NCBI RefSeq assembly: GCF_030408835.1
Contig: NZ_CP047357.1
Location: 682,001 to 746,000 of the forward strand
Length of the DNA stretch: 64,000 bases
DNA from: Corynebacterium freneyi
Lineage (GTDB): Bacteria > Actinomycetota > Actinomycetes > Mycobacteriales > Mycobacteriaceae
Direction: 5' to 3'
The number at the start of each line of letters is the position of its first letter. Position 1 is the stretch's first letter. The notes beneath the pieces were generated by a model. That model was given only the letters and a program-made list of their open reading frames with translations. It was not told where the DNA came from and searched no databases. Positions 17,715 to 60,497 of the stretch are shown in pieces. A program made the position numbers and the translations under genes.

Positions 17715-17908
17715 CCGACGCCGGACCATGCACCCGCCGCGTTCCCCATATATAGAGGAGGGGAAAGAAAAGCGGCGGGGAGGCTGCCGACAAGAACTTC
17801 AGGGACGACGACCACGCGGTTCGTCGCAAAGCACACACACACGCAAGCACCGCCGGACGCGAACAAAGCGTCGGCGCGAGCCCGGACAAGGAAAAGGGAG
17901 CTAACACA

Positions 17909-20062
17909 GTGGCTGAAATGGGGAAGACCGTGGCGGAGCCGATCGGCAAGGACGAGCTGGATTTCCACGCTCTCAACGCCCTGCTCAACCTGTACGACGA
18001 CGACGGCAAGATCCAGTTCGACAAGGACCGCGACGCCGCGCGCCAGTACTTCCTGCAGCACGTCAACCAGAACACGGTCTTCTTCCACAACCTGAAGGAG
18101 AAGCTGGACTACCTGGTCGAGAACAAGTACTACGACCCGGTCGTGCTGGACAAGTACGAGTTCGAGGACGTCAAGGCCCTGTTCAAGCAGGCCTACGCCC
18201 ACAAGTTCCGCTTCAAGACCTTCCTGGGCGCCTACAAGTACTACACCTCGTACACCCTGAAGACCTTCGACGGAAAGCGCTACCTCGAGCGCTACGAAGA
18301 CCGCGTCTGCATGGTGGCCCTCACCCTGGCCGCCGGCGACCTCGACCTCGCCCGCAACCTCGTCGACGAGATCATCACCGGCCGCTTCCAGCCGGCGACT
18401 CCGACGTTCCTCAACTCCGGCAAGGCCCAGCGCGGCGAGCCGGTGAGCTGCTTCCTGCTGCGCATCGAGGACAACATGGAGTCCATCGGCCGCGCCATCA
18501 ACTCCTCGCTGCAGCTGTCCAAGCGCGGCGGCGGCGTGGCGCTGCTGCTGAGCAACCTGCGCGAGCAGGGCGCGCCGATCAAGCACATCGAGAACCAGTC
18601 GTCCGGCGTCATCCCCGTGATGAAGCTGCTGGAGGACTCGTTCTCCTACGCCAACCAGCTGGGTGCCCGCCAGGGCGCCGGCGCCGTCTACCTGCACGCG
18701 CACCACCCGGACATCATGCGTTTCCTCGACACCAAGCGCGAGAACGCCGACGAGAAGATCCGCATCAAGTCGCTGTCGCTCGGCGTCGTCATCCCGGACA
18801 TCACCTTCGAGCTGGCCAAGCGCAACGACGACATGTACCTGTTCAGCCCGTACGACGTCGAGCGCGTCTACGGCAGGGCGTTCGCCGACGTGAACATCTC
18901 CGAAAACTACGACGACATGGTCGAGGACCCGCGGATCCGCAAGACCAAGCTCAACGCCCGCGCGTTCTTCCAGACGCTGGCCGAGATCCAGTTCGAGTCC
19001 GGCTACCCGTACATCATGTTCGAGGACACGGTCAACGCCGCGAACCCCATCGCCGGCCGCATCACCCACTCGAACCTGTGCTCCGAGATCCTGCAGGTGT
19101 CCACCCCGTCGACGTACCACGAGGACCTGTCCTACGACGAGGTCGGCGAGGACATCTCCTGCAACCTCGGCTCGATGAACATCGCCATGGCCATGGACTC
19201 GCCGGACTTCTCGGCGACCGTCGAGACCGCCATCCGCGGTCTGACCGCCGTGTCGGAGCAGACGTCCATCGACTCGGTGCCGTCGATCCGCAAGGGCAAC
19301 GAGAAGTCGCACGCCATCGGCCTGGGCCAGATGAACCTGCACGGCTACCTCGGCCGCGAGCGGATCCACTACGGGTCCGAGGAGGGCATCGACTTCACGA
19401 ACATCTACTTCTACTGCGTGCTGTTCGAGGCGCTGAAGGCGTCGAACAAGATCGCCATCGAGCGCGGCGTGAAGTTCGGCGGTTTCGAGGATTCGAAGTA
19501 CGCCACCGGCGAGTTCTTCGACAAGTACATCGACGCCGAGTGGAAGCCGGCGACGGCCCGCGTGCAGGAGCTTTTCGACGAGTCGGAGATCAGCATCCCG
19601 ACGCAGGACGATTGGCGCGAGCTGAAGGCCTCCATCCAGGAGCACGGTCTGTTCAACCGCAACCTGCAGGCGGTGCCGCCGACGGGGTCGATCTCCTACA
19701 TCAACAACTCGACGTCGTCGATCCACCCGATCGCGTCGAAGATCGAGATCCGCAAGGAAGGCAAGATCGGCCGCGTCTACTACCCGGCGCCGCACATGGA
19801 CAACGACAACCTGGAGTACTTCCAGGACGCCTACGAGGTCGGCTACGAGAAGATCATCGACACCTACGCCGCGGCGACCCAGCACGTCGACCAGGGCCTG
19901 TCGTTGACGCTGTTCTTCAAGGACACCGCCACCACGCGCGACATCAACCGTGCGCAGATCTACGCGTGGCGCAAGGGCATCAAGACCATCTACTACATCC
20001 GCCTGCGCCAGGTGGCCCTCGAGGGCACCGAGGTTCAGGGCTGCGTGAGCTGCATGCTGTAG
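17909..20062 (+). CDS. nrdE: Ribonucleoside-diphosphate reductase class Ib, alpha subunit
   Basis: This is the 717-residue catalytic subunit reducing NDPs to dNDPs. The first half of the active-site disulfide lies in GEPVSCFLL (about residue 190), the NLCSE motif with the thiyl-radical Cys near residue 390, [10 protein letters not shown] around 415, and the C-terminal redox tail [18 protein letters not shown] and PPTGSISY are conserved substrate-site loops. There is no N-terminal ATP cone, as expected for NrdE. GTG at 17909 follows AAAGGGAG; an ATG nine bases later is the alternative. The upstream gap includes one copy of the 10-base word described in the findings. Confidence 0.97.
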
Positions 20063-20252
20063 TCGCGCCGCGTCGCCGCCGGCGGGCATCCGGGGTTTCC
20101 GGGCGCCCGCTTTCGGCGTCGCCGGGTGCCCGGGGAGGGGGGCGTGCCGACGACGGGCGCGTGCATTCTGACCAGGGGGTTTTACGGACCGTGACCGGTT
20201 CGCCCATATCGAATCTCGCGGCTAGACTGCCGGGAGAACCAGGAGGAATTAC

Positions 20253-21275
20253 ATGACCGTGAATCGTTCCGATTGCCCGCCGTCGACGCCGGCGCACCGC
20301 GAGAAGAACCTCGAGGCCCGGGAATGCCCGGTGGCCGCGATCGACTGGAACACCATCCCGGATGACAAGGACCTCGAGGTCTGGGATCGGCTGACCGGAA
20401 ACTTCTGGCTTCCGGAGAAGGTGCCGCTGTCCAACGACATCAAGAGCTGGAACACGCTCAACGAGCTGGAGCAGCGCACGACCATGCGCGTGTTCACCGG
20501 CCTGACCATGCTGGACACCATCCAGGGCACCGTGGGTGCGGTGTCGCTGCTGCCGGATGCGCTGACGGCGCACGAGGAGGCGGTGTACACCAACATCGCG
20601 TTCATGGAGTCGGTGCACGCGAAGTCCTACTCGTCGATCTTCCAGACGCTGGCGTCGACGCCGGAGATCAACGACGCCTTCCGGTGGGCGGAGGAGAACG
20701 AGCACCTGCAGCGCAAGGCGAAGATCATCCTCGACTACTACGAGGGCGATGATCCGCAGAAGAAGAAGGTGGCCTCCGTGATCCTGGAGTCCTTCCTCTT
20801 CTACTCGGGCTTCTACCTGCCCATGTACTGGTCGGCGCATGCGAAGCTGACGAACACGGCCGACATCATCCGGTTGATCATCCGCGACGAGGCCGTCCAC
20901 GGCTACTACATCGGGTACAAGTACCAGAAGAACCTGGAGCGTCTGTCCGAGGAACGGCGCGAGGAGCTGAAGGACTACACCTTCGATCTGCTGCTGGATC
21001 TGTACGACAACGAGATCCAGTACACGGAGGACATGTACGACGAGCTCGGCTGGACCGAGGACGTCAAGCGGTTCCTGCGCTACAACGCCAACAAGGCGCT
21101 GAACAATCTGGGCTACGAGGGCATTTTCCCGGCCGACGAGTGCAAGGTGTCTCCGGCGATCCTGTCGGCGCTGAGCCCCAACGCCGACGAGAACCACGAC
21201 TTCTTCTCGGGCTCCGGCTCGTCCTACGTGATGGGCAAGGCGGAGAGCACCGAGGACGAGGACTGGGACTTCTAG
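20253..21275 (+). CDS. nrdF: Ribonucleoside-diphosphate reductase class Ib, beta subunit
   Basis: This 340-residue radical-generating subunit carries a dimetal (Mn or Fe) centre. Ligands and radical site are seen in [20 protein letters not shown] with KSYSSIF (E-x2-H-x3-Y, radical Tyr) and in [17 protein letters not shown] (E-x2-H). The C-terminus ends EDEDWDF, the tail that docks into NrdE. AGGAGG lies 8 nt before the ATG. It is separated from nrdE by 190 bp with no gene. In C. glutamicum, as I recall, additional genes sit between nrdE and nrdF. Confidence 0.97.
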
Positions 21276-58906: not shown

Positions 58907-58989
58907 ATCGCATTCACGACGTCGGGGTAACCCGCGCCGTGCAGCGGATTACAGGATAACCCACGAATCGTGCCCGACAAAACCGCAGG

Positions 58990-59703
58990 TCATCGGCATG
59001 CTTGACGACGGTCCGGCCCAGGCCACTCCATCGGCACGGCACGCATGGCGTCCTCGGCCGCCCGCGTGACCTCATCGGTGGACGGTCCCTCGCCGGGGAC
59101 GAGCATGGCGCGGCGGTAGAACTCCAGCTCGCGGATCGACTCGCGGATGTCGGCCAGCGCACGGTGCGACATGCCCTTCTCCGGCTGCCCGAAGTACACG
59201 CGCGGGTACCAGCGGCGGGCCAGTTCCTTAAGGGAGGACACGTCGATCATGCGGTAGTGCAGGAACTGGTCGAGCTCCGGCATGTAGCGGTTGATGAAGC
59301 CGCGGTCCGAGGCGATCGAGTTGCCGGCCAGCGGCGCCTGACGCTCGGCGGGCACCCACTGGCGGATGTAGTCGAGAACCATGCGCTCGGCTTCGTTGAC
59401 GTCGACGGTCGACCGGCGGATCTCGTCGGTAAGGCCGGAGGACGCGTGCATTTCGGTGACGAACGAGTCCATCTGCGCCAGTTCGGTCTCCGAGGCGTGG
59501 ACCACGATGTCGACGCCGTCGCCGAGGATGTTGAGCTGCGCATCCGTGACCAGGGCCGCGATTTCCACGATGACGTGCCTGTTGGGATCCAGGCCGGTCA
59601 TCTCGCAGTCGATCCACACGATGCGGTCGTACTTCGGGGCAACGCCGTTGGAATCGTTGCCGGCGTTGTCGTTGCAGTTGGCGTCGTCGTGCGCGTGGGT
59701 CAC
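58990..59703 (-). CDS. orn: Oligoribonuclease
   Basis: This 237-residue DEDDh exonuclease degrades 2-5-nt RNAs and pGpG. Motifs: Exo [21 protein letters not shown] (D-E), Exo [22 protein letters not shown], and Exo [22 protein letters not shown] (H-x4-D). A ~30-residue Asn/Asp-rich N-terminus ([14 protein letters not shown]) precedes the core. The GTG start overlaps the stop of cmrA by 4 nt. The order tRNA-His, orn, cmrA echoes Rv2511 and Rv2509 in M. tuberculosis. Confidence 0.94.
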
Positions 59704-60497
59704 TGGGCCATCCCTTCGTAGAAACGTCCGATGATGGGGGCGACGAGCCACCTCGGCAGGTAATTGCCCGCGGTGTTCATGCCCTTGCTCAGGGCGCCGG
59801 GCACCACCCGCAGGCGATTGGCCGCCACCGCATCGAGGCTGTCGCGGGCGCAGTCGTCGGTGGAGGTCCACAGGAAATCGGGGACGTTCTCGTCGACCTC
59901 GTTGGCGCCGCCGTCACGCTCGTCGGGACGCACCGGGCCGGGGGCCAGCAACGTGCAGTGCACGCCGGTGCCCTTGAGGTCGTAATGCAGCGCCTCGGTG
60001 AACGTGTTCACGAACGCCTTCGTGCCCACGTACGTGGCGTTGTTCGGGATGACCGTCGTGCCGGCCGCCGAACCCACGTTGAGGATCGCACCCGAACCGC
60101 GCTCGACCATCTGCGGCACCACCAGCTGCGTCAGATCGAACAGGGCGGTGGCGTTGAGCTCGAACTGCGCCTTCTCGTACTCCGGGTCCAACTCCTGGAA
60201 ACGGCCGAACGTGGCGATGCCGGCGCAATTGACCATCACGCTGATCCGGCGCTCCCGCAGCTCGTCGCAAAGCACCTCCCGCTCCCGCGGATCCGACAAA
60301 TCGCAGGGACGGACCTCCACGGACAGGGACGGGCCCGACAGCTCCGCGGCCAGGGCCTCCATCTTGTCCGCCGACCGGGCAACGAGAATCAGCGAATGGC
60401 CGCGCCGGGCGAGTTCCCTGGCCAACGCCTTTCCGATGCCTTGCGACGCGCCGGTCACCACGGCGCGGTAATCGGGATGGGGAGCGGGCAATGCCAT
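59700..60497 (-). CDS. cmrA: Mycolate reductase (CmrA-type short-chain dehydrogenase)
   Basis: This is a 265-residue SDR. The NADPH loop is [20 protein letters not shown], followed by [12 protein letters not shown] (NNAG variant), catalytic Ser in [15 protein letters not shown], and [11 protein letters not shown] (Y-x3-K). It corresponds to CmrA/Rv2509, which reduces the keto group of newly condensed mycolic precursors; the neighbouring orn supports this. GAGGA lies 5 nt before the ATG on the minus strand. It is the strongest single sign in the window that the organism makes mycolic acids. Confidence 0.85.

Follow-up and report, generated by a model that had tools for sequence, protein, structure and literature searches.

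Short words that recur many times in a chromosome are known from several groups of bacteria. HIP1 of cyanobacteria is one such highly iterated word; it is palindromic, and its function is unsettled. Two families with uptake words, Pasteurellaceae and Neisseriaceae, are both Gram-negative. For sequence-specific uptake, the relevant part of a review names only these two families (PMC5031613). The DNA uptake sequence (DUS) is present in about 1,900 copies in Neisseria meningitidis and N. gonorrhoeae, and the sections of one study that deal with it report eight dialects in Neisseriaceae, frequent inverted DUS pairs and many one-mismatch forms in Neisseria genomes (PMC3630211). Within N. meningitidis genes the reverse complement outnumbers the forward DUS by 245:123, and most Pasteurellaceae tested show a gene-end bias of uptake words, according to the part of another study that treats them (PMC2346458). 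Here we describe a frequent word of Corynebacterium, found in a stretch of 64,000 nucleotides of the C. freneyi chromosome (the window: positions 682001-746000 of contig NZ_CP047357.1, the single 2.88-Mb contig of host genome G000) and defined below as CGTCG-N-V-AAGC(A).

In contrast to HIP1, the Corynebacterium word is non-palindromic and has dialects. By analogy with the systems above, it probably (at roughly 0.6) works like a DNA uptake sequence with species dialects. We do not claim membership in the class of uptake sequences, and sequence-biased uptake is the step that we infer. The literature matches listed, which mostly did not cover subscription papers, held no report of this word or of Corynebacterium uptake sequences, and an earlier report of the word cannot be excluded. 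Those listed for the literal word were, judging by their titles, unrelated primers or probes, and the relevant text of a survey of spaced motifs names three Corynebacterium species for patterns of clustered regularly interspaced short palindromic repeats (CRISPR) (PMC5217627).

Results

The over-represented word is part of a two-part motif

A preliminary description of the window reported a strong excess of GTCGYAAAGC, with 14 copies between 17.8 and 60.3 kb. All 14 were found where it had placed them (11 of GTCGCAAAGC and three of GTCGTAAAGC), whereas 100 dinucleotide shuffles of the window gave a mean of 0.20 and at most 2. Among 10-mers seen at least five times, GTCGCAAAGC is the most enriched in the window (11 vs 0.06 expected from an order-3 Markov model). 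The excess had even been understated, as the word occurs 208 times forward and 207 times in reverse in the whole genome, compared with 17 and 16 for the reversed control word (415 vs 33).

The identity of the word had been only partly captured, because GTCGYAAAGC is enriched as a fragment of something larger. Unless the whole genome is named, host counts below refer to a 464-kb sample made up of the window and 20 spaced 20-kb stretches. In this sample the middle bases of GTCGnnAAGC vary (TC 87, TA 42, CA 40, AA 26, GA 22, GC 19, TG 18, AG 14, GG 13, CC 10, CG 10, AC 9, AT 1, TT 1), and substitutions in GTCG or AAGC stay near the Markov expectation, the largest excess of such 10-mers being 6 vs 1.6. 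Around the two 10-mer variants, the base 5' of GTCG is C in 98%, G is common at -3 and -4, an A follows the word in 59%, and the positions directly 3' are A-rich. CGTCGnnAAGC occurs 302 times with a spacer of two bases and 4-30 times with spacers of 0, 1 or 3-7; the reversed control occurs 3 times. Since a spacer of two alone is favoured, the middle bases vary, C precedes and A often follows, we define the motif as CGTCG-N-V-AAGC(A), of which GTCGYAAAGC covers 2 of the 12 spacer combinations.

The whole host genome contains 1,707 copies of this extended motif, or about one per 1.7 kb, without strand bias (853 and 854), and 104 copies of the reversed-pattern control (44 and 60), a 16-fold excess. 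Four controls with a single base changed at fixed positions are found 0, 3, 13 and 18 times, compared with 300 motif copies. Counting the word and its mismatch variants against Markov and control expectations across the genome, as had been proposed, therefore places the word far above expectation. Chance and base composition are ruled out as causes by the shuffles, the Markov model and the reversed-control counts, and a longer repeat family by the flanks, which drop to background beyond about -4 to +12. Two motif copies in one stretch (L012, 4307 and 4663), 356 bp apart, have long similar flanks, suggesting a local duplication.

Even spacing and intergenic enrichment

Each of the 20 stretches outside the window holds 9-18 motif copies, and counts in 10-kb bins vary less than a Poisson process would give (variance/mean 0.42, 44 bins without the first 20 kb of the window, simulated P = 0.00035). 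If the terminus is assumed to lie opposite dnaA, which is at position 1, the leading strand carries 139 copies and the lagging strand 161 (P = 0.23), and over 21 stretches no origin-to-terminus gradient was evident by eye.

Genes were called with a purpose-made caller (377 genes, 85.7% coding). Intergenic enrichment, one of the checks suggested earlier, is pronounced: density is 1.45/kb between genes (96 copies in 66.3 kb) and 0.51/kb in coding sequence (204 in 397.7 kb), a 2.8-fold difference, while seven control patterns reach 0-0.04/kb, intergenic and coding alike. The densest gaps are those between convergent genes (2.5/kb), followed by divergent (1.46) and tandem (1.16) pairs. As the spacers TC, TA and CA account for 79 of the 96 intergenic copies, we regard them as the favoured forms; the remaining spacers are chiefly found within genes. 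Neighbouring copies at most 60 bp apart form 17 pairs (11.1 expected), 15 of them inverted (P = 0.002). Several inverted pairs fold as long stem-loops, for example that at 17521/17538 of stretch L006, and at most 34 of the 300 sampled copies belong to a close pair. Copies within genes are antisense or sense in a ratio of 139:65.

Selection acts on the DNA word

In genes, the motif is mostly read in one frame per orientation: C|GTC|GNV|AAG|C in 53 of 65 sense copies and G|CTT|BNC|GAC|G in 123 of 139 antisense copies. Both frames make use of rare codons. Leucine is encoded by CTT in 498 of 12,120 cases overall (4.1%), and in 30 of 842 Leu-x-Asp positions incompatible with the motif, compared with 123 of 226 motif-compatible ones, compatibility being defined by the flanking bases without use of the Leu codon itself. 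Alanine GCA, correctly described as rare, makes up 666 of 17,175 Ala codons (3.9%) and yet 12 of 15 in the context C|GTC|Ala|AAG|C. The five sites at which GTC GCA AAG was said to encode Val-Ala-Lys are four by our gene calls (25234, 27810, 43233 and 45963); the fifth, at 31576, falls just past a stop, although by eye an ATG at 31570 would place it in frame.

The alignable part of the window, 37.7 kb, is ~90% identical between the host and a relative, G070. The motif is kept in G070 at 16 of the 19 alignable sites, including three with a changed spacer (24825, 27810 and 41606), and lost at 28743, 30682 and 40151; the other 11 of the 30 sites are unalignable. Random 11-mers keep the same nine positions in 44% of cases (binomial P = 0.0004). 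Lack of conservation in related genomes had been named beforehand as the outcome that would speak against the word, and this comparison instead favours a real signal. That the word is selected as DNA rather than via protein, as first proposed, is strongly supported, because the use of rare codons, conservation at orthologous sites and the counts across the genome and genus all point to it. A protein-level cause is rejected by the rare codons at the motif (CTT, GCA).

The 30 extended copies of the window, and the one 10-mer that falls outside the extended motif, are listed in Table 1. The span of 17.8-60.3 kb holds for the 10-mers only; extended copies also begin at 10019, 13605, 14105, 15532 and 16709. 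Hairpin or terminator contacts had been ascribed to three copies (35075, 48149 and 52784). Stems are predicted at two of them, the stem-loop around the copy at 48149 being a strong one (-31.0 kcal/mol) and the copy at 52784 contributing its CGTC part to a stem; the copy at 35075 lies between convergent genes. A second enriched intergenic word, CGACGAGTGTGCG, with an inverted copy (CGCACACTCGTCG), lies at 47980-48110 of the window, is repeated near 48 kb and occurs elsewhere in the host genome. In the 464 kb, GCACACTCGT is found 14 times (0.4 expected) and AAACCACGGG 17 times (0.7 expected).

Table 1. Copies of the word in the 64-kb window, with their setting and their state in G070
Element	Sequence	Position	Strand	Setting	State in G070
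motif	CGTCGTCAAGC	10019..10029	+	sole copy in phage-gene segment 1-12815	unalignable
motif	CGTCGAGAAGC	13605..13615	-		kept
motif	CGTCGGGAAGC	14105..14115	+		kept
motif	CGTCGGAAAGC	15532..15542	-		kept
motif	CGTCGAAAAGC	16709..16719	-		unalignable
motif	CGTCGCAAAGC	17822..17832	+	intergenic	kept
motif	CGTCGAAAAGC	19570..19580	-		kept
motif	CGTCGTAAAGC	24825..24835	-	intergenic	CGTCGTGAAGC: core kept, spacer changed
motif	CGTCGCAAAGC	25233..25243	+	in-frame Val-Ala-Lys	kept
motif	CGTCGCAAAGC	27810..27820	-	in-frame Val-Ala-Lys	CGTCGCCAAGC: core kept, spacer changed
motif	CGTCGCGAAGC	28743..28753	+		lost (8/9 core positions)
motif	CGTCGTCAAGC	29809..29819	-		kept
motif	CGTCGCCAAGC	30682..30692	-		lost (7/9 core positions)
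motif	CGTCGCAAAGC	31575..31585	+	gene junction	unalignable
motif	CGTCGGGAAGC	34085..34095	-		kept
motif	CGTCGCAAAGC	35074..35084	+	intergenic, convergent genes either side	kept
motif	CGTCGAGAAGC	40151..40161	-		lost (8/9 core positions)
motif	CGTCGTCAAGC	41606..41616	-		CGTCGGAAAGC: core kept, spacer changed
10-mer	GTCGCAAAGC	43233..43242	+	T before, hence outside extended motif; in-frame Val-Ala-Lys	
motif	CGTCGGAAAGC	45155..45165	-		kept
motif	CGTCGCAAAGC	45962..45972	+	in-frame Val-Ala-Lys	kept
motif	CGTCGGAAAGC	47939..47949	-		kept
motif	CGTCGCAAAGC	48148..48158	+	loop of predicted stem-loop (about 48131-48174) past gene end	unalignable
motif	CGTCGCAAAGC	49888..49898	-		kept
motif	CGTCGTAAAGC	51027..51037	+	inside predicted stem-loop, convergent genes	unalignable
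motif	CGTCGCAAAGC	52784..52794	-	intergenic; CGTC pairs in predicted stem	unalignable
motif	CGTCGTAAAGC	53329..53339	+		unalignable
motif	CGTCGTCAAGC	55430..55440	+		unalignable
motif	CGTCGTCAAGC	57072..57082	-		unalignable
motif	CGTCGTCAAGC	59000..59010	-		unalignable
motif	CGTCGCAAAGC	60263..60273	+		unalignable

Depletion in phage and prophage DNA

Phage tail, endolysin, holin and DNA-binding families are matched by the genes of the window as far as about 10.2 kb. From 12816 onwards the window is again syntenic with G070. The preceding segment, 1-12815, holds one extended copy where 8.3 are expected (P = 0.0024), so the proposed comparison of prophage with host DNA shows depletion; the reported absence from the prophage is true of the 10-mer but not of the extended motif, which occurs at 10019. 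Outside the window, G237 (by inference strain NBRC 16721 of C. xerosis) carries 1,887 motif copies in 2.7 Mb, and eight C. xerosis phages (353,213 bases in total) carry 19, compared with about 247 at host density. These are eight of nine differently named phages, Troy being left out, and several are closely related. A single copy was found in each of two further phages, Poushou (host C. vitaeruminis) and PSonyx (host C. glutamicum); altogether, ten of 22 Corynebacterium phage records were searched. Segment 1-12815 is a prophage remnant or the end of a prophage, with an endolysin ~72% identical to that of C. xerosis SamW-group phages.

Dialects across the genus

We searched 242 Corynebacterium genomes, with thresholds set in this analysis. 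CGTCGNVAAGC is abundant (at least 3x control) in 172 of them, and CATCGNNAAGC, the CATCG dialect first seen as an excess in G001, is abundant (at least 200 copies, up to 1,337) in 17; CGTCGTCAAGC and CATCGGCAAGC are example words of the CGTCG and the other dialect, respectively. One genome, G024, is rich in both and 54 in neither, some genomes lying near the threshold (for example G226, at 2.7x control). Where CGTCG copies number 200 or more (169 genomes), the strands are used equally (z mean 0.04, sd 0.87). The preferred spacers differ between genomes: AG and AC in G075, TC, TA and CA in the host, GC in G001. Some genomes of nearly similar G+C are far poorer, such as G113 (67%; 104 vs control 55) and G232 (65%; 87 vs 71).

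Samples of 80-100 kb were taken from 13 of the 54 genomes rich in neither dialect. A third word, CGCG-R-CGTCA-T-C-A, is present on both strands of G012 (66 in 100 kb, control 2), whose CGTCATCA resembles CGTCGTCA of the host. A weaker word on both strands of G018 (L039-L043), GGCGTCG plus an A-tract (49 per 100 kb), is possibly terminator-related. Coding words set aside, no comparable word was found in the other 11 of the 13 samples. Gapped words of the CTCGNCGAG and CGTCGNCGAG types score highly in G206 and G232, and were rejected as dialects because almost all of them lie in one codon frame in genes, also in the host and other genomes, as expected of coding effects; CTCGNCGAG is intergenic in 0 of 90 cases in G206 and 6 of 224 in the host.

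A tree of 36 genomes was built from four genes; 10 of its 33 inner branches are weak. Mapping CG, CA and none onto it as states takes 6 changes, compared with 16.6 when they are shuffled. Of the 16 none-state genomes, nine cluster together with good support and seven are dispersed among word-rich genomes. A single well-supported clade unites the CATCG-rich G001, G024 with both words, the CGTCG-rich G074 and G043 with neither. In 140 genomes from 30 other genera of the family, CRTCGNNAAGC stands at 0.2-2.7x control (ratios by eye); G338, G320 and G356, from genera g5 and g23, reach 2.0-2.7x the reversed control. In a record titled Corynebacterium halotolerans 307_CHAL (L083), TadA is 92% identical to the host protein and the motif counts equal those of G069; the label of this record may be wrong.

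Candidate machinery

ComEC (PF03772) has a match in 241 of the 242 genomes, frame intactness being shown only for the rows listed. Its gene has one in-frame TGA in G123 and is split in two matches in G014, G090 and G229 (pseudogene or assembly error). A ComEA-like gene adjoins comEC in two relatives. The host has an actinobacterial Tad locus at 209.8-214.9 kb, encoding Ssd, TadA, two T2SSF proteins, a DUF4244 protein, a TadE-family minor pilin and a TadE-like protein. Of 35 relatives, all have matches to tadA, tadB and tadC, 34 have the neighbouring helicase and 34 the DUF4244 protein, and the small TadE-like proteins are found only in part.

A weaker TadA match characterizes 32 genomes, two of them word-rich. 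Similarity of TadA was rejected as a discriminator of rich and poor genomes, and the pattern is read as phylogeny, not cause, because the two word-rich exceptions have matches split over frames and the nine weaker-TadA, word-poor genomes included in the tree cluster together with good support and retain tadA-tadB-tadC in place. The genomes with TadA split over frames are G014 and G074, in which the cause may be either a pseudogene or an error of assembly.

Discussion

DUS and the uptake signal sequence (USS) of Pasteurellaceae are the closest match to the motif because of its density, strand neutrality, even spacing, inverted pairs, selection as DNA with a preferred orientation in genes, rarity in the phages checked and nearly mutually exclusive dialects with scattered losses. 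Like the DUS, which is read in Neisseriaceae by the minor pilin ComP, it is a short non-palindromic word on both strands, here in hundreds to about 1,900 copies; its dialects lie one or a few bases apart and cluster on the phylogeny, its inverted pairs can form stem-loops, and within genes the reverse complement is about 2:1 in excess, all features that the consulted portions of the DUS literature also describe. It differs in belonging to another phylum, in the near lack of an excess of one-mismatch forms, and in being a two-part word with a degenerate 2-base spacer, unrelated to the DUS consensus as given in the review extract (ATGCCGTCTGAA, PMC5031613). With the USS it shares density, strand neutrality and terminator-like dyads, as far as the excerpted USS descriptions go. 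The extended USS also resembles the word in its A-rich 3' positions. The words themselves are unrelated (USS AAGTGCGGT, in the same extract, PMC5031613), and the Corynebacterium word lacks the gene-end bias.

We propose that the motif would be a species-level chromosomal tag, recognised in free double-stranded DNA by a receptor at the surface of the cell, such that the cell would preferentially take up and recombine DNA of its own kind. Uptake would be biased towards the word, and the receptor might be one of the Tad minor pilins or some other protein of the cell surface. Copies would accumulate through molecular drive plus selection, fragments bearing the word being imported and recombined in preference to others, and a change in receptor specificity would give rise to a new dialect. 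In the competent actinobacterium Micrococcus luteus, tadA1, tadA2 and comEA are called competence-related in the part of a study that treats them (PMC6667448), and this makes the Tad pilus a natural candidate; TadE-family minor pilins are receptor candidates by analogy only. A genus-wide uptake-sequence system with at least three dialects, arisen independently of Neisseriaceae and Pasteurellaceae and read, in Gram-positive cells that have an outer mycolic membrane, by competence machinery based on a Tad pilus, has in our judgement a slightly better than even chance of being correct.

Several observations weigh against an uptake sequence. Intragenic copies have no gene-end bias of the Pasteurellaceae kind, which we reject (n = 191, Kolmogorov-Smirnov P = 0.33), one-mismatch forms at fixed positions, so many in Neisseria, are scarcely raised in the host (at most 6 vs 1.6 expected, a clear excess being confined to spacer variants), and no report of competence in Corynebacterium was among the literature matches listed. 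The receptor candidates are such by analogy. Presence of the machinery does not track the word either, because both ComEC and Tad genes persist in word-poor genomes: ComEC is matched in all 54 genomes with neither dialect, the only genome lacking a match, G185, bears CATCG, and 16 of the 35 relatives with tadA, tadB and tadC have neither dialect. Presence or absence of ComEC or Tad was thus rejected as the cause of rich and poor genomes.

Among the candidates of the preliminary description, the uptake-type sequence fits best; a Chi-like signal or FtsK-orienting polar sequences (KOPS) found no support, and a methylation or nucleoid-protein site explains fewer facts, dialect exchange, inverted pairs and density being those at issue. 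A Chi-like or self-marking site would be read inside the cell by a helicase-nuclease (e.g. AdnAB) or a defence nuclease, protecting the cell's own ends and steering recombination. The word resembles Chi in being short, frequent, non-palindromic and species-specific, and its scarcity in the phages checked recalls the rarity of Chi in phages. Chi words too vary between species, as stated in the part of the DUS study that mentions them (PMC3630211). We nevertheless consider a Chi-like role unlikely, as the word has no replication-strand bias (leading 139, lagging 161), and equal strand use and inverted stem-loop pairs are unexpected for an oriented stop signal. RecC (PF04257), part of RecBCD, the classical Chi reader, was found in the Escherichia coli control and in 0 of 242 genomes, AddAB and AdnAB not being searched. 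The even chromosomal spacing and the rarity in phages checked would also suit a site bound by a protein that organises, replicates or segregates the chromosome (a nucleoid protein, an SMC loader or a KOPS-like system). The lack of replichore bias led us to reject an orientation signal with KOPS-type polarity from origin to terminus, and with no evident gradient towards the terminus, 54 genomes with neither word, and G001, G024, G074 and G043 differing within one clade where no change between close relatives is expected, such a site is distinctly unlikely.

Methylation or restriction specificity, for which the word would be kept as a protected or regulatory mark, could account for a two-part word with an exact 2-base spacer (302 vs 4-30) and for changes between species. 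Restriction sites are as a rule avoided, not accumulated. The 16-fold excess, the inverted pairs and the cost in rare codons would need another benefit, and we hold this explanation to be very unlikely. That the word results incidentally from the use of amino acids or codons, from terminators or from a family of dispersed repeats is close to excluded. It is true that 204 of 300 copies lie in genes, mostly in one frame per orientation, that some form part of terminator-like stem-loops, and that coding alone produces other gapped words, such as CTCGNCGAG. However, rare codons are forced at the word, its density is highest outside genes, unlike that of coding words, which argues against a codon cause, and one-base-changed controls, genomes of nearly similar G+C (G113, G232), flanks at background and the small share of close pairs all speak against it.

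Should the motif serve a purpose other than uptake, it would be even stranger: a word with dialects, about one copy per 1.7 kb and no known reader. If it is an uptake tag, Actinobacteria would provide a third, unrelated case, showing that self-tagging evolves repeatedly, and hidden natural competence would be predicted across Corynebacterium. The several gains, losses and switches could be used to find the receptor by comparison, dialect switches would mark receptor changes, and a practical rule for transforming these species in the laboratory would be to match the dialect of the DNA to that of the recipient. In most Corynebacterium species, natural transformation would in that case be a main route to sexual isolation and self-biased recombination.

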